Shown here: positions 4,768 through 64,000 of the stretch, piece after piece | Numbering within the stretch: position 1 is the first letter of the stretch | Layout of the letters: every line of letters begins with the position of its first letter | Source: Diphasiastrum complanatum | Taxonomy: Eukaryota > Streptophyta > Lycopodiopsida > Lycopodiales > Lycopodiaceae | Assembly: GCA_029204225.1 (NCBI GenBank) | Contig: CM055098.1 | Coordinates: forward strand, 10,491,246 to 10,555,245 | Length of the DNA stretch: 64,000 bases | Reading direction: 5' to 3' | Position numbers and translations under genes: made by a program | The notes under the pieces: model-generated | Database searches by the model: none | Seen by the model: only the letters and a program-made list of their open reading frames with translations | What the model was told of the DNA's origin: nothing

Positions 4768-5557
4768 TGTAATTTTTACAACGTTCACTTCAGCACTGGC
4801 TGACATCGCACCCTTTTTACGCTCACTCCATGCAGTTGTGCTAACAAATTGGACAACGATTGCAGCCACCCACGATCTCCTACAGACAGCACATCCACTC
4901 TGTACTTTCACATCTGCACACATGTAATATTATGTATATATACATATTCTGGACACCATTTAGATGATCAAGTGAGTGAAGAAGAGACTAAGAGAAGAGG
5001 TTTGATTTCTCATATCAGACAAAATAAGCTTCGTAGGGCATGCGGTTTCGTCCGCTATTGTATTGTGCTCTGCCGCATTATTAACTTGTATACATGATAT
5101 ACTTAATCTGATACAGCTCTTTGTTCTGCATTCAGATCTGTGTTAATATTGCTATGCTTGTTCTTCATTTTATCTGAACTTTCTAGCTACACTTTCTGGT
5201 AATAGACGATTAGCTTTTAGTCTTGTCTTTCGCGAACAATTTGCGACTAATTATCAGTCGAGCACAGTCTAGCCTTCGCAAATCATTCGCGACAGATAAT
5301 TTGTCTTGCAATTCGTGACAAATTATTCATCTAGCGCTTCATCCATTAAATGTTTGGCTACGTAATCTAGAATGACTGTGATTTCTATCACTAAAGTTCT
5401 CTTCATTCTGATAGGCGTAGTCATGCTTACGGAGAAGTCAAATAATTCATCTCGTTGCGCACGAACATTTTTTGTTTGAGTTCGCTTCTCGTTCATTTCT
5501 TGTTCGAGTTCATTTATCGTTCGTGTTCGTCATTTATTCTCACCCTCTCTCCCAACA
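4768..5557 (+). repeat. truncated isolated LTR of the copia C family
   Basis: The sequence aligns by eye along its length with 47265-48145 of the copia C 3' LTR. Shared segments include CAGCCACCCACGATCTCC, ACAGCACATCCACT, the repeated GCGACTAA/GACAAATT stem-loop zone and the terminal CCCAACA (5551-5557). The 5' half of the LTR, including the TGTTGG terminus, is missing. It abuts minus-strand gypsy sequence at 5558, so the join marks an insertion or deletion breakpoint. Divergence from the 48-kb copy is high, so this is an old copy. Confidence 0.75.
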
Positions 5558-35049: not shown

Positions 35050-36640
35050 TTGTTGTTATATTTGCATAATAGGAAAACACACAAGCAACACCAATGGATC
35101 AAACCAATGATAACCCAACTTTTGATTTATCAAACCCATCCAATGTGGCATAAGCTCTTGAACTTTTATACCAACAAATTCAAGCCACTAATAAACAGCT
35201 TCTTGAAACTAATCAAAAGAACCAAGACTTAGAGTCTAGGTTAGCCAACCAAAAGAAGCATGTAGTTCCACCTATTGTAAAATTGTTTAAGGGGGAGAAG
35301 AAAGATAGGAACTTACAAGTGGTAAGTTCATGGCTTAATGTTTGGAACAAATACTTTGGCATGAACCAATTCCCTAAATGTGAAAAGTTATCCACTATTA
35401 CTATGTTCCTTGAAACAAGAGCCTTAGTATGGTGGGATGACCTAGTTGCAAAAGGCAATCAACCTTGTACATGGGATGATTTTTGCATAGTTTTTAGGGA
35501 ATACTTTCTACCACTATAAGATGACTATGAACACTTTCAAAAGTTGAGTCATATAACAATGAATAAAGGTTTGGAACAGTCTATTCAAGATTTTCATGAG
35601 TACCTGAATCCACTTTATAGTGACATTCCACCTAAGGTACAAATGTTAATGTTTATTGATGGGTTACCAAAACCAAATATGGAAGGTCCCAGTCCCCGTT
35701 TTACTTCAATCTCGAAGATCAAATATGATTATTTTAAAGGAACATCTTCAGATGATGCTGACGGTTATATTTCGCAGTTGGAATCGATTTCTAACTCAAA
35801 TAACGAAGGTACTAATGTTGACAAGCTACGAATCTTCTCTGGTCTTAAAAGAAAGCAAGCGTGCCAAGTTGGACCAGGACATGTAGCTACCTAGTTACTG
35901 CTGAAAGATGCGTTTCTAAACCAATTCAAAAAAATTGGTTATTTATCCAGAGTCCTTGGAAGACTCAACAATGTAAAGAAGAAGAGCAAAGAATCTCTTT
36001 GAGGGTATACACAAAAAGTAAAGAATCCGATTGGAAAACTAACTGGTGTGTACCCTGCCGCGATGCAAGTTGAGTAGTTTTTGGTAGGTTTACCACCAGA
36101 AATTGATTGATACTATAGACAAGGAGATATGACTTCTTTATCAGCAGTAATAGCAAGCGTTGAGAACTACGAGACTTCCAAGTTAGCACACAAAAGAAGT
36201 TCTACCAGACGTACTCGAAAGTCTAAGCATGACTCCATCAGTAGTGAAGATGAATCTAAATCCAAATCCAGTTCAAGTTCTTCTAGTTCCGATTCTAATT
36301 CCAATGACTTGTCAGACACAAAAACTGATGATGCAGATCGAAGGAAGAAACGAAAGTCCAAACGAAAAGAAGATAGCAAAACCATTGAGGACAAGTCTAC
36401 GACATCTAAAGTTAAAAAGCTTTAGAAAAGTAATATGGCTGATCTTAATAAAAAGTTCAATGATTTGAAAGTGCAAACTTCAGAGTTGCAGACAAGAGAC
36501 CGAAAGCTTCTTCTTCAAATTCAAGATTATGGTGTACGAAGTGCGGTACATTTGGACATTCTAAAGAGAGAGATGAGAGAGTGAGGTGCAAGGATGTTTT
36601 GATTGTCAAACGAACATAATCTCCTCCTCCTGATTGAACA
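35050..36640 (+). pseudogene. gypsy gag (chimeric or rearranged), plus strand
   Basis: The start is probably ATG 35094 (MDQTNDNPTFDLSNP). It is interrupted by TAA at about 35149 and TAA near 35517. Retrotransposon-gag blocks are visible (VSSWLNVWNKYF, ARALVWWDDLVAKGNQPCTWDDFCIVFREYFLPL, LEQSIQDFHEYLNPLYSDIP). From about 35710 a new gag-type N-terminus appears (FTSISKIKYDYFKGTSSDDADGYI), so two gag types may be fused here. A Ser-rich/Lys-rich linker is at 36129-36425. A CX2CX4H knuckle (CTKCGTFGH) is near 36537-36563, with the last Cys displaced. No pol follows. Confidence 0.65.
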
Positions 36641-39115: not shown

Positions 39116-39923
39116 ATTTGAAATACATTATATACAACTACCCATAGAAGCGCATCTGAATTACTCACAACAATAGTAAATGCATATTCATGACCCAAGA
39201 TACATAAATTTTCTTCTCTGTGTGCAGAGAGGACTTCATTACAGTTCTTATCCAAAATGGTACATTGTTTTGAATTCAATAGGGCTCTATAGCCCTGATT
39301 AGTAAGCTTGCTGACTGACAATAAATTCTTTGTCAATTTGGGTACGTACAGTACATTCTTAAGCAAGGTTAATTCACCATTTGGAAGTGTAGAGGCATAT
39401 TGATCATTTGCCTCCAATCTGTAGTGCACTTGAGTCACCAAAGTAAACATACTTCGAATGTGCTTGTCTCAGATCTTCAAATAGGAATTTACATGGTGTC
39501 ATGTGCTGAGAAACATTGGAATCGAGATACTAATCCATGACATTCTAATGGGTTCGTCTTGTACCATCAATGTCTTAATCTCTTCTTTCTAGGAGTTTCT
39601 AACAGATTCAGAGCCTCCTTCCTAGTGCTGCTACATCTTCTTTTTGGCTTCATTGTGCTTGAGAATCCGACAGTCTTTGATGTTGTGATTGGATATTTTG
39701 CGATATCTGCAAAATAGTTTGGTCTTGGTAGGTTGTTGTTGTCGACTATTCTGTGGTTGTTGTGTTGAATCTGGCCACTCCGCCTTGGTCTTCTTATCCT
39801 AAAATAACACCTTGAGATTATGGCAAATTGCTTTCTGATATTATATTGCGATTTCATTGTGTTCCCATTGGAAGGTGCATAGCTTGAGGGAAAGTGCTCG
39901 GGCCTCCTCTTGCCTCCTTTCAT
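39116..39923 (-). pseudogene. copia fragment: zinc knuckle to pre-integrase, minus strand
   Basis: Minus-strand 39450-39109 carries the copia blocks YASTLPNGELTLLKNVLYVP and NLLSVSKLTNQGY between protease and pre-integrase. Upstream (39923-39567), a frame-shifted gag tail includes a damaged knuckle, CRYRKISNHNIKDC, in which the second Cys is Arg. The protease active site itself is not readable. It differs in sequence from copia A, B and C. Confidence 0.7.
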
Positions 39924-40023
39924 TGGTTTTTATTGTGGCATGTTTTTAATTGCTTTATGCTTAGTTTAGCCGAAATTTATATTTTCCATCTCCCTTGGGG
40001 TGTTAGGTAGAAATTAATTAGGC

Positions 40024-40236
40024 ACCTTGCTAGTTGGGAAAGCCTTAGCAAGGTTTAATTTGTTTAAGGAGTTTGCTAATTGGGTAAGTCTTAGCAAAGC
40101 CCTAGTTTAGTTAAATCGCTTGTTAGTTGGATAAGCCTTAACAAGCCTAGTTAGATTGTTTTTTAGTTTTTTGGCATCAGTTGGGAAAGCCTTGATGCTT
40201 TCGTTTCCGAGCACCAGTTGGGAAGCCTTGGTGTTC
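40024..40236 (+). repeat. array of five stem-loops with a conserved loop
   Basis: Unit 1: 40024-40054, stem ACCTTGCTA/TAGCAAGGT, loop GTTGGGAAAGCCT. Unit 2: 40072-40098, stem TTTGCTAA/TTAGCAAA, loop TTGGGTAAGTC. Unit 3: 40118-40146, stem GCTTGTTA/TAACAAGC, loop GTTGGATAAGCCT. Unit 4: 40174-40198, stem GCATCA/TGATGC, loop identical to unit 1. Unit 5: 40209-40236, stem GAGCACCA/TGGTGTTC with one G-T pair, loop GTTGGGAAGCCT. Stems differ between units but stay paired. An additional 8-bp hairpin with another loop is at 40313-40336 (ACTACATC/GATGTAGT). There is no ORF across the array. Confidence 0.9.
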
Positions 40237-40339
40237 TTCCTTTTCTTCATATTCTTACTTTATTTGTAAATTTTATGTAGATCTTAGGAAGTGGACGAAC
40301 CTTCTACGCTATACTACATCCGTAAGTAGATGTAGTCAC

Positions 40340-41752
40340 CGCACAACAAGATTTACTTCCAACAAGGACCCGGTCCTTTTTTGTCTGCACCTGCTGAATT
40401 TTCACCTGCAGGGCTGGAGCTTTGTGTAAAAATCACTTTGATTTGATTCATTAGTATAAGCTCTAAATGTGATATTGTAATTAGTGTACAGATAATTAGA
40501 TTTACTGTATTTGTTTGTTATCGGAACATGAACCACTATCGTCATATCAATTGGGCACTGATCCTGTAGCCGGCTACTTGGGTTAGCCAAGTAGTCACAC
40601 GTAGGAAAACTTAGCTTGAACATTGTTATTTATAGTACTTGCTATATTCGGGGGCATGTCCCGAGTTTGTCAGTCGAATTTGGCCATATTGGGCCTGTTG
40701 GCAAGTGATAGGCCAATTTTAGTACATCTGTCTCTTCATGCAGTTTGTGAATACTCTATATGTACAGTTTCTTTGGTAATATAGTTTAAGCTTTTATTGT
40801 GCTATCTTAATGGGAATTCACGAAGAAATTGCTCAAACCAGTGTATTGCTTCGCGAAGTGGCTATGACGTAAATTTGGTCAGATATCTTTGAGTACTCCG
40901 TCAATTGGAGAGTTGAGTGGATCAGAACAGGCTGCAAGGTAGTGGTAACTCAGGGTTGAGTGGATTTTCAATCCATTTACAATGGAGGGAGAAAGTTGCA
41001 ATTTTGGGAATTGAAAGAAAGTGGTCTGCTTCTTGAAAACGGGAAGACATGGATCTTTCTCCGTACTCAACGGATTTGAGCACTGTAAATTGCTACCCAG
41101 CACTGTATGGGAAAGGCCAAGTGATTGCCAGAACGGCAGGGTCAGCCATGGAGCAATCATAGAGCAATTAATCCTTCTCTCAGGTATGGAAAGAAAAGGA
41201 AGCTAGGGTTTTAAGGAGAAAACTCACGAATTTTCCACTATTGAAGACCTTTTTTGATGTTTTCAATGGCTGCGGATGGGCGCCCTAGTACTGTGATGAG
41301 GATGCTAGAGGGTCGTGACCAACCGTGGAGTCAGTAAGATCAAGATCAAATTCTAACATGCATCCATAGTTATGGAGAGAGAGATGAAAGCTTGAATGGA
41401 GAGAAAATGGAGGAGGAGGCATAGGCCTCGCGCGCGTCAACGAGAGGGAGGCCATAGCGTTTTGAGGTGCGTAGTGGCCACATAAAGGAGCTTCAGTTCG
41501 CAGAAGCATGGATCATCATCAGAATATGAAGGAGGTCGATGGACAGTCGTGATCGATTTCTCGGGGAGCGATCTAGACCACAAGATGAATGGTGGCCATT
41601 GAATGGCAAGTAAAGGAGGCCATTAAAGGTTGAGGGGGTCCGAAGGGCCATTGGGCCTTCAAATTCATTAAAAATTTTCACTTTGAAATTGAGTGAAGGG
41701 ACCCCCCATTTAGAATGGGCAATTCTGTTGTACTTTTAGTATCTTCTTAGGC
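40340..41752. other. unassigned non-coding sequence
   Basis: No recognisable frame, repeat or regulatory site on either strand. Short open frames here have no family motifs. It may be the body of the same unknown element that carries the stem-loop arrays at each side. Confidence 0.4.
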
Positions 41753-41949
41753 TTTATTATGGCGGTCTCCCATCTAATAGATTTAGATTGATACTAAAAT
41801 GGGTTGTGTAGGGTGAGTACGGGTAAGATCCACTCAAATCACTATTCTATTGTTGCCTAGGTATCTTCTAAGGCGGTCTCCCTACTAGAAGATGGTTCTA
41901 CATATGAAGAGCATGATTAAGTTCACTATGGTTGTCTCCCAACTAGTGA
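41753..41949 (+). repeat. array of three stem-loops with a conserved 15-nt loop
   Basis: Unit 1: 41753-41781, stem TTTATTA/TAATAGA (one T-G pair), loop TGGCGGTCTCCCATC. Unit 2: 41863-41893, stem ATCTTCTA/TAGAAGAT, loop AGGCGGTCTCCCTAC, flanked by a further T-G pair. Unit 3: 41923-41949, stem TCACTA/TAGTGA, loop TGGTTGTCTCCCAAC. Inside each loop, bases 1-3 pair with 11-13 (TGG/CCA, AGG/CCT, TGG/CCA), and the outer pair of that mini-stem also switches T-A to A-T in unit 2. Confidence 0.9.
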
Positions 41950-42730
41950 TTAGAAGTAAGAACTCCACAAGGGTTGGAGAGTAAAATAACTAACTATCCC
42001 ATAAGCAATACAACAATCCAAAGGAGAAGGCCTAGTGGGGCTCGAGCACCTACCACAAGGTATTCAATCACCAATGGAAACACAAGTAAGCATACACAAG
42101 ATATCACAAAAGTGGTCTATTATAGCAAAGCTTATACAAGTGTCATTGAGGGCACACATCCACTTCCATATATGGCAAGAGTGGTGGGCCTATGCTCTAA
42201 CATGCTTATGGGACTAAATCTAAGCTTAATGCTAATTAACTTGTAAAGTTATAGTAAACTTAAAACTAAACTTGAACTTAGGAATTAACTTTGAACTTAG
42301 GAATTAAATCTTAAACTTAGACTTTCTAAATTGAACCATTACAAATGGGTGTTTGTAATAATTAAACTTAAATGGCAAAAGTTCTAGGTATAAGGTTTTT
42401 TCTAAACCTTATTTGAATTTACTTGTGGGCTTACAAAACACATGCCACAATAAATTCTTAAAACTTTAAAGGACCTTGGGGCCAACATTATCCCCCTCTT
42501 TATTGGATTGGTGGTCACACACCAATGACAGCTGCTCATTGTCGGGTTGTTTCGTCGTAGGTCTCCTTATTGAGCGTCACCTTGGTGGCATGCAATTCTT
42601 TGCCAACGGGCTCCAACATCTGCCACCATAGCTTATCCGGGAAGGGCCACAGGCCAATATCATAATGGAGCATGTTCTGGAGAAAGCCATGCATTTTTCA
42701 AATTTTCATGTGGTGTAGCAAATCAGTGGA
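41950..42730. other. unassigned AT-rich sequence
   Basis: No gene recognised. A short repeat of GAACTTAGGAATTAA occurs at about 42270-42310. The right end leads into the minus-strand gypsy gag. Confidence 0.4.
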
Positions 42731-42737
42731 ATTAAAA

Positions 42738-43310
42738 CTAGAGGTGCGGATCCTTTTTAATGGGAACTTTCCCCTTGCGATCACAATGATCATACTCATC
42801 ATCGGATCCTTCATCTTCCTCTCTAATAGTGTCATCCATTACTTCTTTCAGTTGGTCGTATGATTTAAGTTCTCTTTTGATAGATTTAGGTAAGCCTGCC
42901 AAAAAGAGTTTGATAGTCATTTTTTCTGTGATTTTCTCAGCAACGCATTCAACCTTGAGACACTTAAAGTGCTCAATGTAGGTGCGTACTTATTTGTCCC
43001 TTCTCATCTTGATATGGGATAATTGAATGAAAGGGCTTTGGGTCAACTTGGAAGGTTTGAATCGTTTGGTGAGGGCTGTGATAAGGGTTTCCCAGGAAAC
43101 TATATCAGATTCTTCAAGATTAAGATACCATTCCTTAGCATCCCCAAGTAATATCATTCTCAGAAGTATCACCATAGAATTTGCGGGCATTTTCAAAATC
43201 TTGGAAACATCTGACGGGGTCGGATCCTCCATCGTATTTTGGCGCATCAATCCTAGGGATTCGCCTTTCAATTCATGGAGCAGGGGCACCTTCAGGTTCC
43301 TTACTCATGT
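42738..43310 (-). pseudogene. gypsy gag fragment, minus strand
   Basis: On the minus strand the sequence reads KEPEGAPAP, RIDAPKYDGGSDPVRCFQDFEN, then (other frame) LLGDAKEWYLNLEESDIVSW, FIQLSHIKMRRDK-stop, VRTYIEHFKCLKVE and MTIKLFLAGLPKSIKREL. These are the capsid blocks of a plant gypsy gag. Two frame changes and a stop (near 42990) break it. The zinc knuckle would lie below 42738 and is not seen. Confidence 0.75.
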
Positions 43311-43453
43311 CACCTATAATCAATCATCACGCCAGGGTGATATCACTATAAGATTACAATAATATGATAGGAAATCGAAGGGGAGAGAGGGATATTGGAA
43401 CTAACACGCACAAAAGGTGGCCAACTCGTTTCTCACACCTCTCTTTCCCAACA

Positions 43454-43465
43454 TGGTATCAGAGC
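43454..43465 (+). promoter_or_regulatory. primer-binding site of copia C
   Basis: TGGTATCAGAGC, perfect tRNA-iMet complement, immediately after the LTR end CCCAACA. The gag ATG is at 43611. Confidence 0.93.
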
Positions 43466-43610
43466 TATTTCTGTAGCCTGATAAGCTTCCACAGTAGCAA
43501 GACTCTACTAGCCGATAGAGTAATTATCTTCTTGTTCTGTAATTTAACACCAGATTTTCATACTTAAGACATTGATAGTTTTTCCTATCACCTAGACTAA
43601 TCTTCCACAT

Positions 43611-46973: not shown

Positions 46974-48145
46974 TGTTGGATTTAACTCCTTTACTCTCAT
47001 AAATCCTATGTTAATCTGCCTCCATTCATGCTCCTGTATTTTTCTTGTGTTGTCGCACAGTCTGCATATTTACATGTAAAATAAGACAGACGAATAAAAC
47101 GCGACTGTCTGCATAAATACAAGTAAATTTCCATAGGCGAAAAAGGTGACATTGTGTTTTTACACGTGATTTGTGACAGGCAAAAAAGGTGACACTACCC
47201 TACAAATGCTAAAGGTACTCTATAAATTAGTTTTTAAGACATTTGTCAAAGTGTCGTGTTTTTCGCATTTTCACAAACGTTAATTTCAACGAAGGCTGAC
47301 GTCGCGGCCTTCTCACGCTCATCCCCATGTACTATGCAATCAAATTTGACAACGATAGCAGCCACCCACGATCTCCCACAGATAGCACATCCACTTTGTA
47401 CTTTCTTCATCTACACACCTATAAAAATTATGTATATATATATATTGAATACCATCTGCGTATTCATCACAACACATAACAGCATCAGAGCAAAACATCG
47501 CTGATAATTAGAGACAAACATTGTAGATGCTTTCGCGCATTGAGTCTTTTTCTTCCAGATCTATATTCTTAGTAATAGGTTTATCACCTTCACAGATTGT
47601 GTGATTAGCTTTGTGAAGCATGCGGTTACGTCTGCTATTGTCTTGTGCTCACCTGCATTATTGACTTGTATATTTCGTTATACTTAATCTGATTACAACT
47701 CTGTTTGTTCTGCGTTCATATTTGTGTCAATATTGTAATGTTTTTCTACATTCTGTTTGACTTTCTTATTGCTTAATTTGGTAGTCCGCTCTTCGCGAAT
47801 TATTATTAGTCTAGCTGTTTGCGACTAATATTTAGTCTTGTCTTTCACGACTGATTATCAGTCTAGCTATTCACGACTAATAATTTGTCTAGCCGTTCAC
47901 GACAAATTATCTTTCTGATGTTTTGATGCTTAAAATTTGGTTACGTAATCAACTCGAACATGATTCCTATTACTAACGTTCTGTTCGTGTCTGATAGGCG
48001 TAAAAGAAAGAGTGAGATAGCTTATTTCGCTGCACACGGACACTTTTTATTTGAGTTCGTTTCTTTTTTGAGTTTCGAGTTCGCTTCTTTTCGTGTTCGT
48101 TTCTTTTTTAGCTCTTTTCGTTTCTCACACCCCTCTTTCCCAACA
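46974..48145 (+). repeat. 3' LTR of copia C (1172 bp)
   Basis: Starts TGTTGG and ends CCAACA, a 6-bp terminal inverted repeat with TG..CA. U3 has duplicated motifs: GTCTGCATA followed by TACA(T/A)GTAAA twice (about 47050-47130) and GGCGAAAAAGGTGACA / GGCAAAAAAGGTGACA (about 47138-47200). A TATATATATA box is near 47435. A stem-loop array is at 47804-47909. The same LTR family supplies 4768-5557. Confidence 0.9.
47804..47909 (+). repeat. array of four stem-loops with an 11-nt loop, in the copia C LTR
   Basis: Unit 1: TATTAGTC/GACTAATA, loop TAGCTGTTTGC (47804-47830). Unit 2: TTAGTC/GACTGA with one T-G pair, loop TTGTCTTTCAC (47832-47854). Unit 3: ATTATCAGTC/GACTAATAAT with one mismatch, loop TAGCTATTCAC (47854-47884). 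Unit 4: TAATTTGTC/GACAAATTA, loop TAGCCGTTCAC (47881-47909). The old LTR copy keeps unit 4 at 5297-5325 with the same stem and the loop TTGCAATTCGT. Confidence 0.88.
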
Positions 48146-62313: not shown

Positions 62314-64000
62314 GTGAAATAATACTTACTCTTTGAAGGTTGCTTATCTTTGTATTAAGTTGCACATTTGGGTATGGAATCTTAATTCTTCCTATTTCTC
62401 TTACCAGCATTACAAATTGTCAAAGCCTCTGTCAAGTTTTATCCACATTACTGCAGTAATCTCCAAAAGCTAATTGTTCGAGAAAATTGTAAATTACCCT
62501 TCAAGCAAAGTCAGTTTTAGCTTCCTTAAATTCAGGACCTATTTGAAACACATCTAAAATCCTAAAGGTCTTGCCAACGTTTTCAGTTCATTATTGAGGG
62601 CATTGTATCATATGGCAAAATTGTCTTGTTCTTTTAACAACAACAGGTCCGTGGGCTTTTTGTCTAACAGGCATTATGCCCATAAAGCCCTCCATGGGCT
62701 AGTACATGTAACTGAATTATGCCTGGAATCTTTGTATATTACCCACAAATTTTTTAGCTATTTGTAGTGGAGATAAAATGGACCATAAACTCCTTACGTT
62801 TTGTCAGTGAACAAAAAAGAATGGTGTAGACAATTTGATTGCAAGTTAAAGCGTAGGATAAAGTCTTAATGGAAGGAGTTTATGGGATTAAGAATCTCCA
62901 TAACTCTGCTATCTCTCGAGATCTAGTTCCCTAGAAATAGGATCATAAAGATAAAGCTCATTGATGAAAGTGCTCCATTTACAATTTAAGATCTTATTGG
63001 CCAACCTCTCGTCTTTAAAACCCTAAAGAGGTGCTGCAAGTGCTCTTTTAGTCTCAGCTTTGACCAAAACATCAAACTTTTATCTTGGGTTAATGTTATG
63101 TCTTCAAACGACATAACTAGATTGGCCATTGTTTTGGGTTGATGCCAATGCTAGCAAGGACAAGACATTGCCAATGGTAGCAAGGACATGTTGTCATCTA
63201 CTATTAAGGGTAAGTGCATCTTCAAGGGTGAGTATCTACCCCTGAGGCATCCTCACAAATGAACACCTGTCGTATTGGACGTAGGTGTTTATTGTATGGG
63301 TTCAAGCTCAACGTTGTTTTGGGTTGATGCCAATGCTAGCAAGGACAAGACATTGCCAATGGTAGCAAGGACATGTTGTCATCTACTATTAAGGGTAAGT
63401 GCATCTTCAAGGGTGAGTATCTACCCCTGAGGCATCCTCACAAATGAACACCTGTCGTATTGGACGTAGGTGTTTATTGTATGGGTTCAAGCTCAACGAT
63501 AGCTGAGGTCTTGGGCTTTGGAGAAGCTCTTGGAGGGAGCTTATGGTTGGGCAATGAGTGGCTAGCGATCTTTGTGTTTTGGATCATCCATTTTGGTTTA
63601 TGGTGATGGCACACATGAACTCGACAATGAGATAGGTTTCATATCTTATTTTTCATGCTGTTTTAGGTGGTATAAGAGCCAACTTTTGTTTTCTGGGTAA
63701 AGGACTAATTAGAGTTTGGAAGTTAGTGTATGCATTGCAAGGTTTTTGACTACAATAATGGTTTGATGGAGCAAGGTCGTTGGTTGGCACCAAGTGTAAT
63801 AATTTAGATCCATGCGTGGAACCAAAAGGAAAGTTTTGCCCACAATTCTATGTTGGATGAGTGGTTTCAGCATATACCATGCATGCTAAAGAATTTGCAT
63901 GCATGTGGGATTTGTAGAAAGATTTTCCTCGATGTATAATTCTAATTTATGACATGTTTATGGGCTTTAACTCATATGTGGAAGGTTTATAGATTTATCA
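62314..64000 (+). other. TRAPPC13 intron 2, with retroelement-like sequence
   Basis: No exon 3 is found. From about 62840 the sequence changes character, and a primer-binding-site-like TGGTATAAGAGC (two bases off the consensus reading, 63668-63679) suggests an LTR ending just before it. The internal region would run out of the window. The LTR start is not determined. Confidence 0.45.
63129..63498. repeat. 185-bp perfect tandem duplication
   Basis: 63129-63313 and 63314-63498 are identical base for base by eye. Each copy also contains a short internal repeat (TGCCAATG(C/G)TAGCAAGGACA). Confidence 0.95.

Follow-up and report, generated by a model that had tools for sequence, protein, structure and literature searches.

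Covarying hairpins repeated near the end of a Ty3/gypsy-type LTR, with a possible role in RNA selection by Gag

The window analysed here, a 64-kb stretch of contig C7 from a genome, probably that of a plant, with a size of 1.74 Gb, contains nested pieces of copia and gypsy retrotransposons. Positions 41726–42487 hold, on the minus strand, a 762-bp long terminal repeat (LTR) of a Ty3/gypsy-type retrotransposon, which reads TGTTG...CAACA on the plus strand. A genome-wide DNA search with 41640–42500 scored 40 of its 944 candidates, which gave 43 matches; of the matches, 31 start at query positions 83–90 (41722–41729) and 39 end at 809–861 (42448–42500), and it is these shared start and end points that delimit the LTR. 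Mean pairwise identity is 0.79 inside 41726 and 0.30 just outside, and the dispersed copies have in common the sharp TG...CA ends that define an LTR. The copies compared below number 24, from 34 loci with a match; those left out are nine duplicates (L005, L012, L016, L020, L021, L022, L024, L030, and L031) and L007, where the match is short.

Just ahead of the LTR start in the sense direction is a polypurine tract-like run read from the sequence, AAAGAGGGGGATAA (42488–42501, minus strand), followed upstream by a gag remnant in two frames (42738–43304, minus strand) that matches PF03732 (Retrotrans_gag) with an E value of 1.8e-05 (25.3 bits; cut-off 24.1), a second piece falling under the cut-off (E 0.0014, 19.2 bits). 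Because this polypurine run and broken gag lie beyond one end of the LTR and copies carry a primer-binding site (PBS)-like sequence beyond the other, at 41726, we infer that the repeat is the 3′ LTR of a gutted element whose sense strand is the minus strand. The initial annotation, which described the hairpins discussed below, had given no host element; the host is an LTR retrotransposon. Of six flanks of 10 kb, one (L070, around the L006 copy) carries gypsy-type RT_RNaseH domains (PF17917/PF17919) downstream of the copy. The flanks, L069–L074, extend the loci L025, L006, L032, L014, L035, and L003, respectively, and add no new copies; the other five were without gypsy-type domains, with other genes in L069, copia pieces in L071 and L072, no family in L074, and no ORF of 180 aa in L073. 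Judged from the profile matches to PF03732 in the window and PF17917/PF17919 in L070, the internal part of the element would encode gypsy-type Gag and Pol domains. Beside the gag remnant, a nested element contributes TGGTATCAGAGC at 43440–43470, which we take to be a typical copia primer-binding site, and a perfect head-to-tail duplication of 185 bp lies further along, at 63129–63498.

Three hairpin units, here called array 2, are found on the minus strand near the 41726 end of the LTR. Unit 1, nearest the LTR end, occupies 41753–41781; unit 2, with an 8-bp perfect stem and a switched inner pair, occupies 41863–41893 (minimum free energy −11.2 kcal/mol), and unit 3 occupies 41923–41949 (−9.1 kcal/mol). 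On the plus strand the layout is a stem arm, T or A, GGNNGTCTCCC, A or T, two bases, and the second stem arm. An exact GGYKGTCTCCCNNC is present in the window only at these three units, and allowing up to two mismatches gives 14 occurrences versus 5.9 expected, a number reached by none of 100 shuffles. A covariance model of 63 family units, when run on the 64-kb window, picks exactly units 1–3, which are themselves among its training rows.

Several features of the array that had been proposed from the window alone are borne out by the copies. The three loop-sharing units with closed stems lie at the positions just given, and their pairing is kept across copies; the 2-nt bulge is retained in the 63 aligned units; and the switch of the inner pair from T-A to A-T recurs widely, with 43 of the aligned units having U-A, 18 having A-U, and 2 being unpaired. 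The description of the stems as unrelated was too strong, the inner pairs being common to the units and the stems ending in -YTA/TAR. Across copies the stems are mostly TCTAYTA, TCTTCTA, and TCACTA, and the TTTATTA of the window deviates from the other unit 1 copies. Likewise, the statement that the sequence between units is not repeated is nearly right, the exception being a weak 31-nt repeat (74%) between 41722–41752 and 41844–41874. Between units 1 and 2, a stretch at 41806–41845 (minus strand; mean identity 0.83–0.84) is conserved nearly as well as the hairpins and has a similar counterpart in L004 and L008; it could be a further leader element, and part of it may form a small hairpin. Two candidate features were set aside by eye: an upstream ORF within the loop (AUGGGAGAC...), rejected as not preserved in units 2 and 3, and a larger stem around window unit 1, not counted as not preserved in all copies. 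Rfam searches matched no described family, giving nothing up to an E value of 5 for 41500–42600 and a single match of 24.4 bits, against a gathering score of 40, for 39800–40600.

The pairing was assessed on units cut by position with pairing disregarded. Set A1 comprises 63 of 65 distinct units, aligned without gaps under a model of 7 pairs, a 2-nt bulge, 3 pairs, and a 7-nt loop (630 cells). Excluded from it were unit 2 of L014, which lacks 3 nt at the bulge, and unit 2 of L006, with an arm 3 nt shorter; before the 65 were counted, identical units had been removed, as had the non-homologous unit 1 of L027. Standard pairs account for 94.1% of cells, compared with 79.7% in shuffles and at most 54.3% in slid controls, 94 cells are changed on both sides (31.9 in shuffles), and the covariation score is 0.434 (0.185 in shuffles), with none of 500 shuffles doing as well on any of the three measures. 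Double changes touch 6 of the 10 pairs, no more than in shuffles (6.1). Within unit 1 (21 sequences), one of ten pairs is double-changed, from U-A to C-G, and the score of 0.098 is lower than that of one slid control (0.125, at +3). The covariation is thus mostly between unit positions and families and represents few independent events, so that support for the structure is good when units and families are compared and weak within one unit.

Among 21 copies, identity is 0.88–0.96 in the stems, 0.79–0.91 in the cores, 0.48–0.76 in the spacers, and 0.77 in the rest of the LTR. The core of unit 3, at 0.79, is close to the LTR mean, and two other LTR stretches, 42306–42345 and 42426–42445, are conserved as strongly as the hairpins.

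Across the whole genome, a strict array-2 motif occurs 756 times (414 + 342), and its reversed control not at all (0 + 0). The bare 11-nt loop has 1213 matches against a reversed-pattern background of 834. The initial annotation had made its reading depend on most genome copies of the loop having complementary flanks; among the first 28 bare-loop places listed (of 1213, all on contig C1), at least six of the seven stem pairs form in 17 and at least five in 21, as that reading requires, and the share genome-wide may be lower than in this sample because of the size of the reversed background. The seven stem-poor places of the 28 are also without TA ahead of the loop, and one runs into masked N. 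Three pairs examined in the 67 strict copies listed (of 756) are Watson-Crick in 63, 64, and 67 of them, with two pair types each, where the letter sets of the pattern would yield Watson-Crick pairs by chance half the time and the 67 copies are mutually related. The outer pair is A-T in 50, T-A in 13, and A/A in 4; the next is C-G in 55, T-A in 9, T-G in 1, and C/A in 2; and the inner pair, at which the pattern admitted only A or T, is T-A in 55 and A-T in 12.

The position of the array within the element can be read from its surroundings. A PBS-like sequence, TTGGYRNNNTTGC (minus strand), adjoins the LTR end in 7 of the 24 copies (L003, L006, L014, L015, L025, L032, and L035), three of which have TTGGCGNNNTTGCC; the window copy has no PBS at its 41726 end. 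The exact string of LTR end plus PBS, CAACATTGGCGCCGTTGCC, whose PBS presumably matches tRNA-Asp, has 354 copies in the genome and none in the control. By sequence, then, the family appears to possess the tRNA primer-binding site of an LTR retrotransposon. Of 37 LTR-end-plus-PBS places on C1–C2, five have a strict array-2 hairpin 60–219 nt upstream in the sense direction (0.006 expected; none on the wrong strand) and 32 have no strict array-2 hairpin nearby; the core of array 1, described below, lies 143–151 nt upstream at three of seven such places on C1 below 54.8 Mb, four being without it. Since the PBS-like sequence is next to the hairpin-bearing LTR end, we read the array-2 hairpins, which lie within the last ~225 nt of the LTR, as part of its U5 or 5′ leader, and their placement relative to the PBS would fit a location in the leader of the genomic RNA. 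A putative TATA region at 42127–42175 (minus strand; mean identity 0.79–0.85), read from the sequence as CCATATATGG and TTGTATAAGC in the sense direction, is about 180–225 nt upstream of unit 3. TATA-like sites precede the first hairpin by about 170 nt in L004 and L008 and by 258 nt in L070; a TATAWA scan of the array-1 copy L043 found none in the LTR, where TATAAG was seen by eye.

Folding energies are less uniform. Folded singly in the sense orientation against 200 shuffles, unit 2 has a z score of −2.84 (2 of 200 as good) and unit 3 of −2.29 (6 of 200); window unit 1 is not better than shuffles (95 of 200 as good), and its relative in L003 is matched by 2 of 200. The L070 leader is slightly more stable than shuffles (z −1.62), and the whole 275-nt stretch of the window is no more stable on either strand (z −0.16 and +0.59). 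As the window leader does not fold better than its shuffles, the claim of structure rests on covariation and not on folding energy. Cells with G-U versus A-C on the sense strand number 13 versus 11 and 11 versus 5, counts that decide neither between the strands nor for RNA.

When the window was scanned for adjacent hairpins that resemble each other in the loop and differ in the stem, the scan yielded array 2, a further array termed array 1, a pair near 47810/47888, and a weak pair at 35926/36412. Array 1 (40023–40238, plus strand) consists of five hairpins with the core GUUGGGWAAGCCU or nearly so, in another LTR that ends in CCAACA at 40364. Its copies L041, L043, L052, L053, and L056 run on into TTGGCRNCRTTGCCGC after the LTR end, and the array-1 LTR appears to have the same kind of primer-binding site as the array-2 LTR. 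Units found by the core alone number 92 in 30 loci (L039–L068), with all seven pairs formed in 69, six in 18, and fewer in 5. In set A3, the 49 distinct ones among these units, 95.3% of cells are paired (69.7% in shuffles), 109 are double-changed (36.7 in shuffles), and the covariation score is 0.781, compared with 0.291 in shuffles and at most 0.224 in slid controls; the L061 row owes its pairing to a gap that the aligner introduced, and has 2 of 7 pairs without it. Compensatory changes therefore beat the controls by cells and by score in both A1 and A3, and the number of A3 pairs with a double change is again not above shuffles (6 of 7 versus 5.8). The 17-base core of array 1 has 3146 genome copies and none in the control. 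In L066, more hairpins of this type occur at 916–948 and 987–1011, about 700 nt off the main array and perhaps in a second LTR.

The initial annotation's overall reading is supported as to a hairpin array with stems that keep their pairing, and does not hold in the form given as to a separate array with a different loop, as the hairpins of arrays 1 and 2 seem to be of one kind, present as variants in two families of LTR. Their cores align as GUUGGGWAA--GCCU and GUUGGGAGACNGCCA. A model built on array 1 only (R2), run on the window and 39 loci (239 kb), found eight distinct array-2 units with E values of 0.004–0.28, among them window unit 3, matched at 41919–41953 (E 0.0085); its other matches were mostly array 1 itself, and most array-2 units of the searched loci were missed. 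In the reciprocal direction, the array-2 model (R1) picked up none of the array-1 hairpins at E values up to 1. The two forms also occur together: in L004 and in L008, a single leader combines a hairpin of the 13-nt core, whose stem has 7 pairs, with one of the 15-nt core, in which 5 of 7 pairs form, on other stem sequences. These regions (L004, 1100–1570; L008, 1100–1560) are probably a third LTR family, judging by the TATA-like site, the ACAACA end, and the segment that they share; no PBS was found in either. These comparisons suggest that the two supposedly different loops are variants of one module. Its presence in two LTR families could be accounted for either by shared descent or by exchange, and the number and order of the hairpins differ among copies and families.

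The pair near 47810/47888 belongs to a third array in the window (47806–47907, plus strand), which has a relative near 5205–5330. It comprises four head-to-tail 26-bp units with GTC/GAC stems, the 52-nt copies being 63–77% like the first; judged by eye, the first and last units pair well. Two pieces were folded, of which one has a z score of −2.31 and the other, badly cut, gave nothing. The host is an LTR-like repeat whose CCCAACA end is at 48145; it has a TATA-like site near 47420–47445 and a diverged relative that ends at 5557; as the repeat and its relative both follow copia-type pieces, it is probably copia.

Repeated hairpins near the LTR end, with pairing and loop kept and in more than one LTR family, are thus supported by observation, and that the array is a hairpin array of an LTR leader we regard as very likely. 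The three window units represent one copy of a repeated module of the U5 or 5′ leader of a Ty3/gypsy-type LTR retrotransposon, as anatomy and copies indicate, and the covariation between units and families points to a module composed of a 7-bp stem whose sequence is largely free, a short bulge on the 5′ side, and an apical loop that is G-rich and fixed. From the TATA-like sites and the PBS, transcription would place it near the 5′ end of the genomic RNA, between start site and PBS, where the hairpins would be transcribed and folded. That they act as folded RNA rather than DNA is probable. Free stems with a fixed purine-rich loop resemble repeated protein-binding hairpins, and in an LTR leader the first candidate ligand is the element's own Gag or nucleocapsid. 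Several apical GGGARA loops per leader, each on a separate stem, would be bound by this protein, selecting genomic RNA for particles much as leader hairpins do in retroviruses, and selection would then act on pairing and loop sequence only. Binding or packaging by Gag is accordingly our first choice of function, by analogy and held tentatively, and the explanation as a whole, a repeated leader hairpin module bound by Gag for RNA selection, seems to us about evenly poised between right and wrong.

Other explanations account for parts of the same evidence. Leader elements serving reverse transcription, RNA export, or translation control, for example by keeping the PBS region open or guiding strand transfer, would have an equal claim on the anatomy, lying on the sense strand 60–219 nt upstream of the PBS, and U5-IR and like structures serve reverse transcription in other elements (PMC3601003, PMC4974528). 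Three to five hairpins with one G-rich loop nonetheless suggest a set of repeated binding sites more readily than a single scaffold, and their number and order vary by copy and family; we give this alternative a minor though real chance. Sites acting in DNA, with a protein on the core and the inverted flanks as cruciforms or palindromic sites, find a parallel in other plant LTRs, as the palindromic repeat motifs of Sirevirus LTRs are proposed cis-regulatory sites, and the G-U and A-C counts favour neither strand. The Sirevirus arms hold a CGG-CCG core and lie upstream of the TATA box, according to the same source (PMC2829016), whereas here the arms vary with pairing kept and the hairpins are downstream of TATA-like sites, so that a role at the DNA level seems unlikely.

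The hairpins could also have no function at all. Reverse transcriptase readily switches templates, and tandem duplication, with the stems maintained in perfect form by such switching (quasi-palindrome correction), would agree with the small amount of covariation within one unit position and with the inner pairs common to units. This process leaves unexplained the conserved 13–15-nt core, the kept bulge, and the like cores in different LTR families, and the hairpins are conserved better than their own spacers; we consider it quite improbable. Recognition of the hairpins by the host as a silencing trigger is a very remote prospect. Stems of 7 bp are short for dicing, and selection on the element should purge such hairpins, even though small RNAs are drawn to palindrome-rich regions of Sirevirus LTRs (PMC10760457).

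A more ambitious form of the Gag-binding reading is that the variable 7-bp stem and GGGARA loop, in its 13- and 15-nt forms, constitute a Gag-recognition code of a plant Ty3/gypsy lineage, present three to five times in each leader and transferred among families. This we think rather doubtful; if it were true, the two loop lengths may set specificity, including the trans-packaging of gutted copies such as that of the window. Large plant genomes consist in good part of LTR retrotransposons, and a covarying hairpin with hundreds to thousands of copies and a like loop in several LTR families offers a concrete and cheap target for tests of packaging signals, and could also be used as a marker of leader ends in annotation. 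A literature search, with subscription papers mostly outside its scope, found neither an earlier report of this hairpin nor any account of an RNA signal that would let a plant gypsy element package its own RNA selectively.

Among known systems, the packaging signals of STNV-like viruses, icosahedral RNA viruses, resemble the present hairpins in being stem-loops that share a loop motif while the stems vary; they are spread across the genome, and the present hairpins are instead clustered in the LTR leader. A further likeness is the use of several short signals, which in those viruses are degenerate (PMC6475782). The Ty1 leader consists of specific single structures and is not known to carry a reiterated hairpin on interchangeable stems. 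It does resemble the present case in that the 5′ end of an LTR-retrotransposon RNA is structured and takes part in packaging and reverse transcription (PMC5454406, PMC4974528). Packaging hairpins of retroviral 5′ leaders, such as the purine loop of MMTV, share a leader site near the PBS and a purine-rich loop (PMC8096270); they belong to other elements, whereas here one kind of hairpin is repeated three to five times and Gag binding is only proposed. In plants, a maize survey reports peaks of structure in copia LTRs and no obvious peak in Ty3 elements (PMC10760457). The nearest plant precedent is the set of repeated motifs in Sirevirus LTRs, likewise many palindromic repeats, which PMC2829016 places in a copia genus, with a CGG-CCG signature, upstream of the TATA box and with CpG islands. 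The present array is gypsy-type, combines variable arms with a conserved loop, and lies downstream of TATA-like sites. The array does not fit the Sirevirus type of motif, as the arms vary, the core is conserved, and the hairpins of L070, L004, and L008 are downstream of their TATA-like sites.
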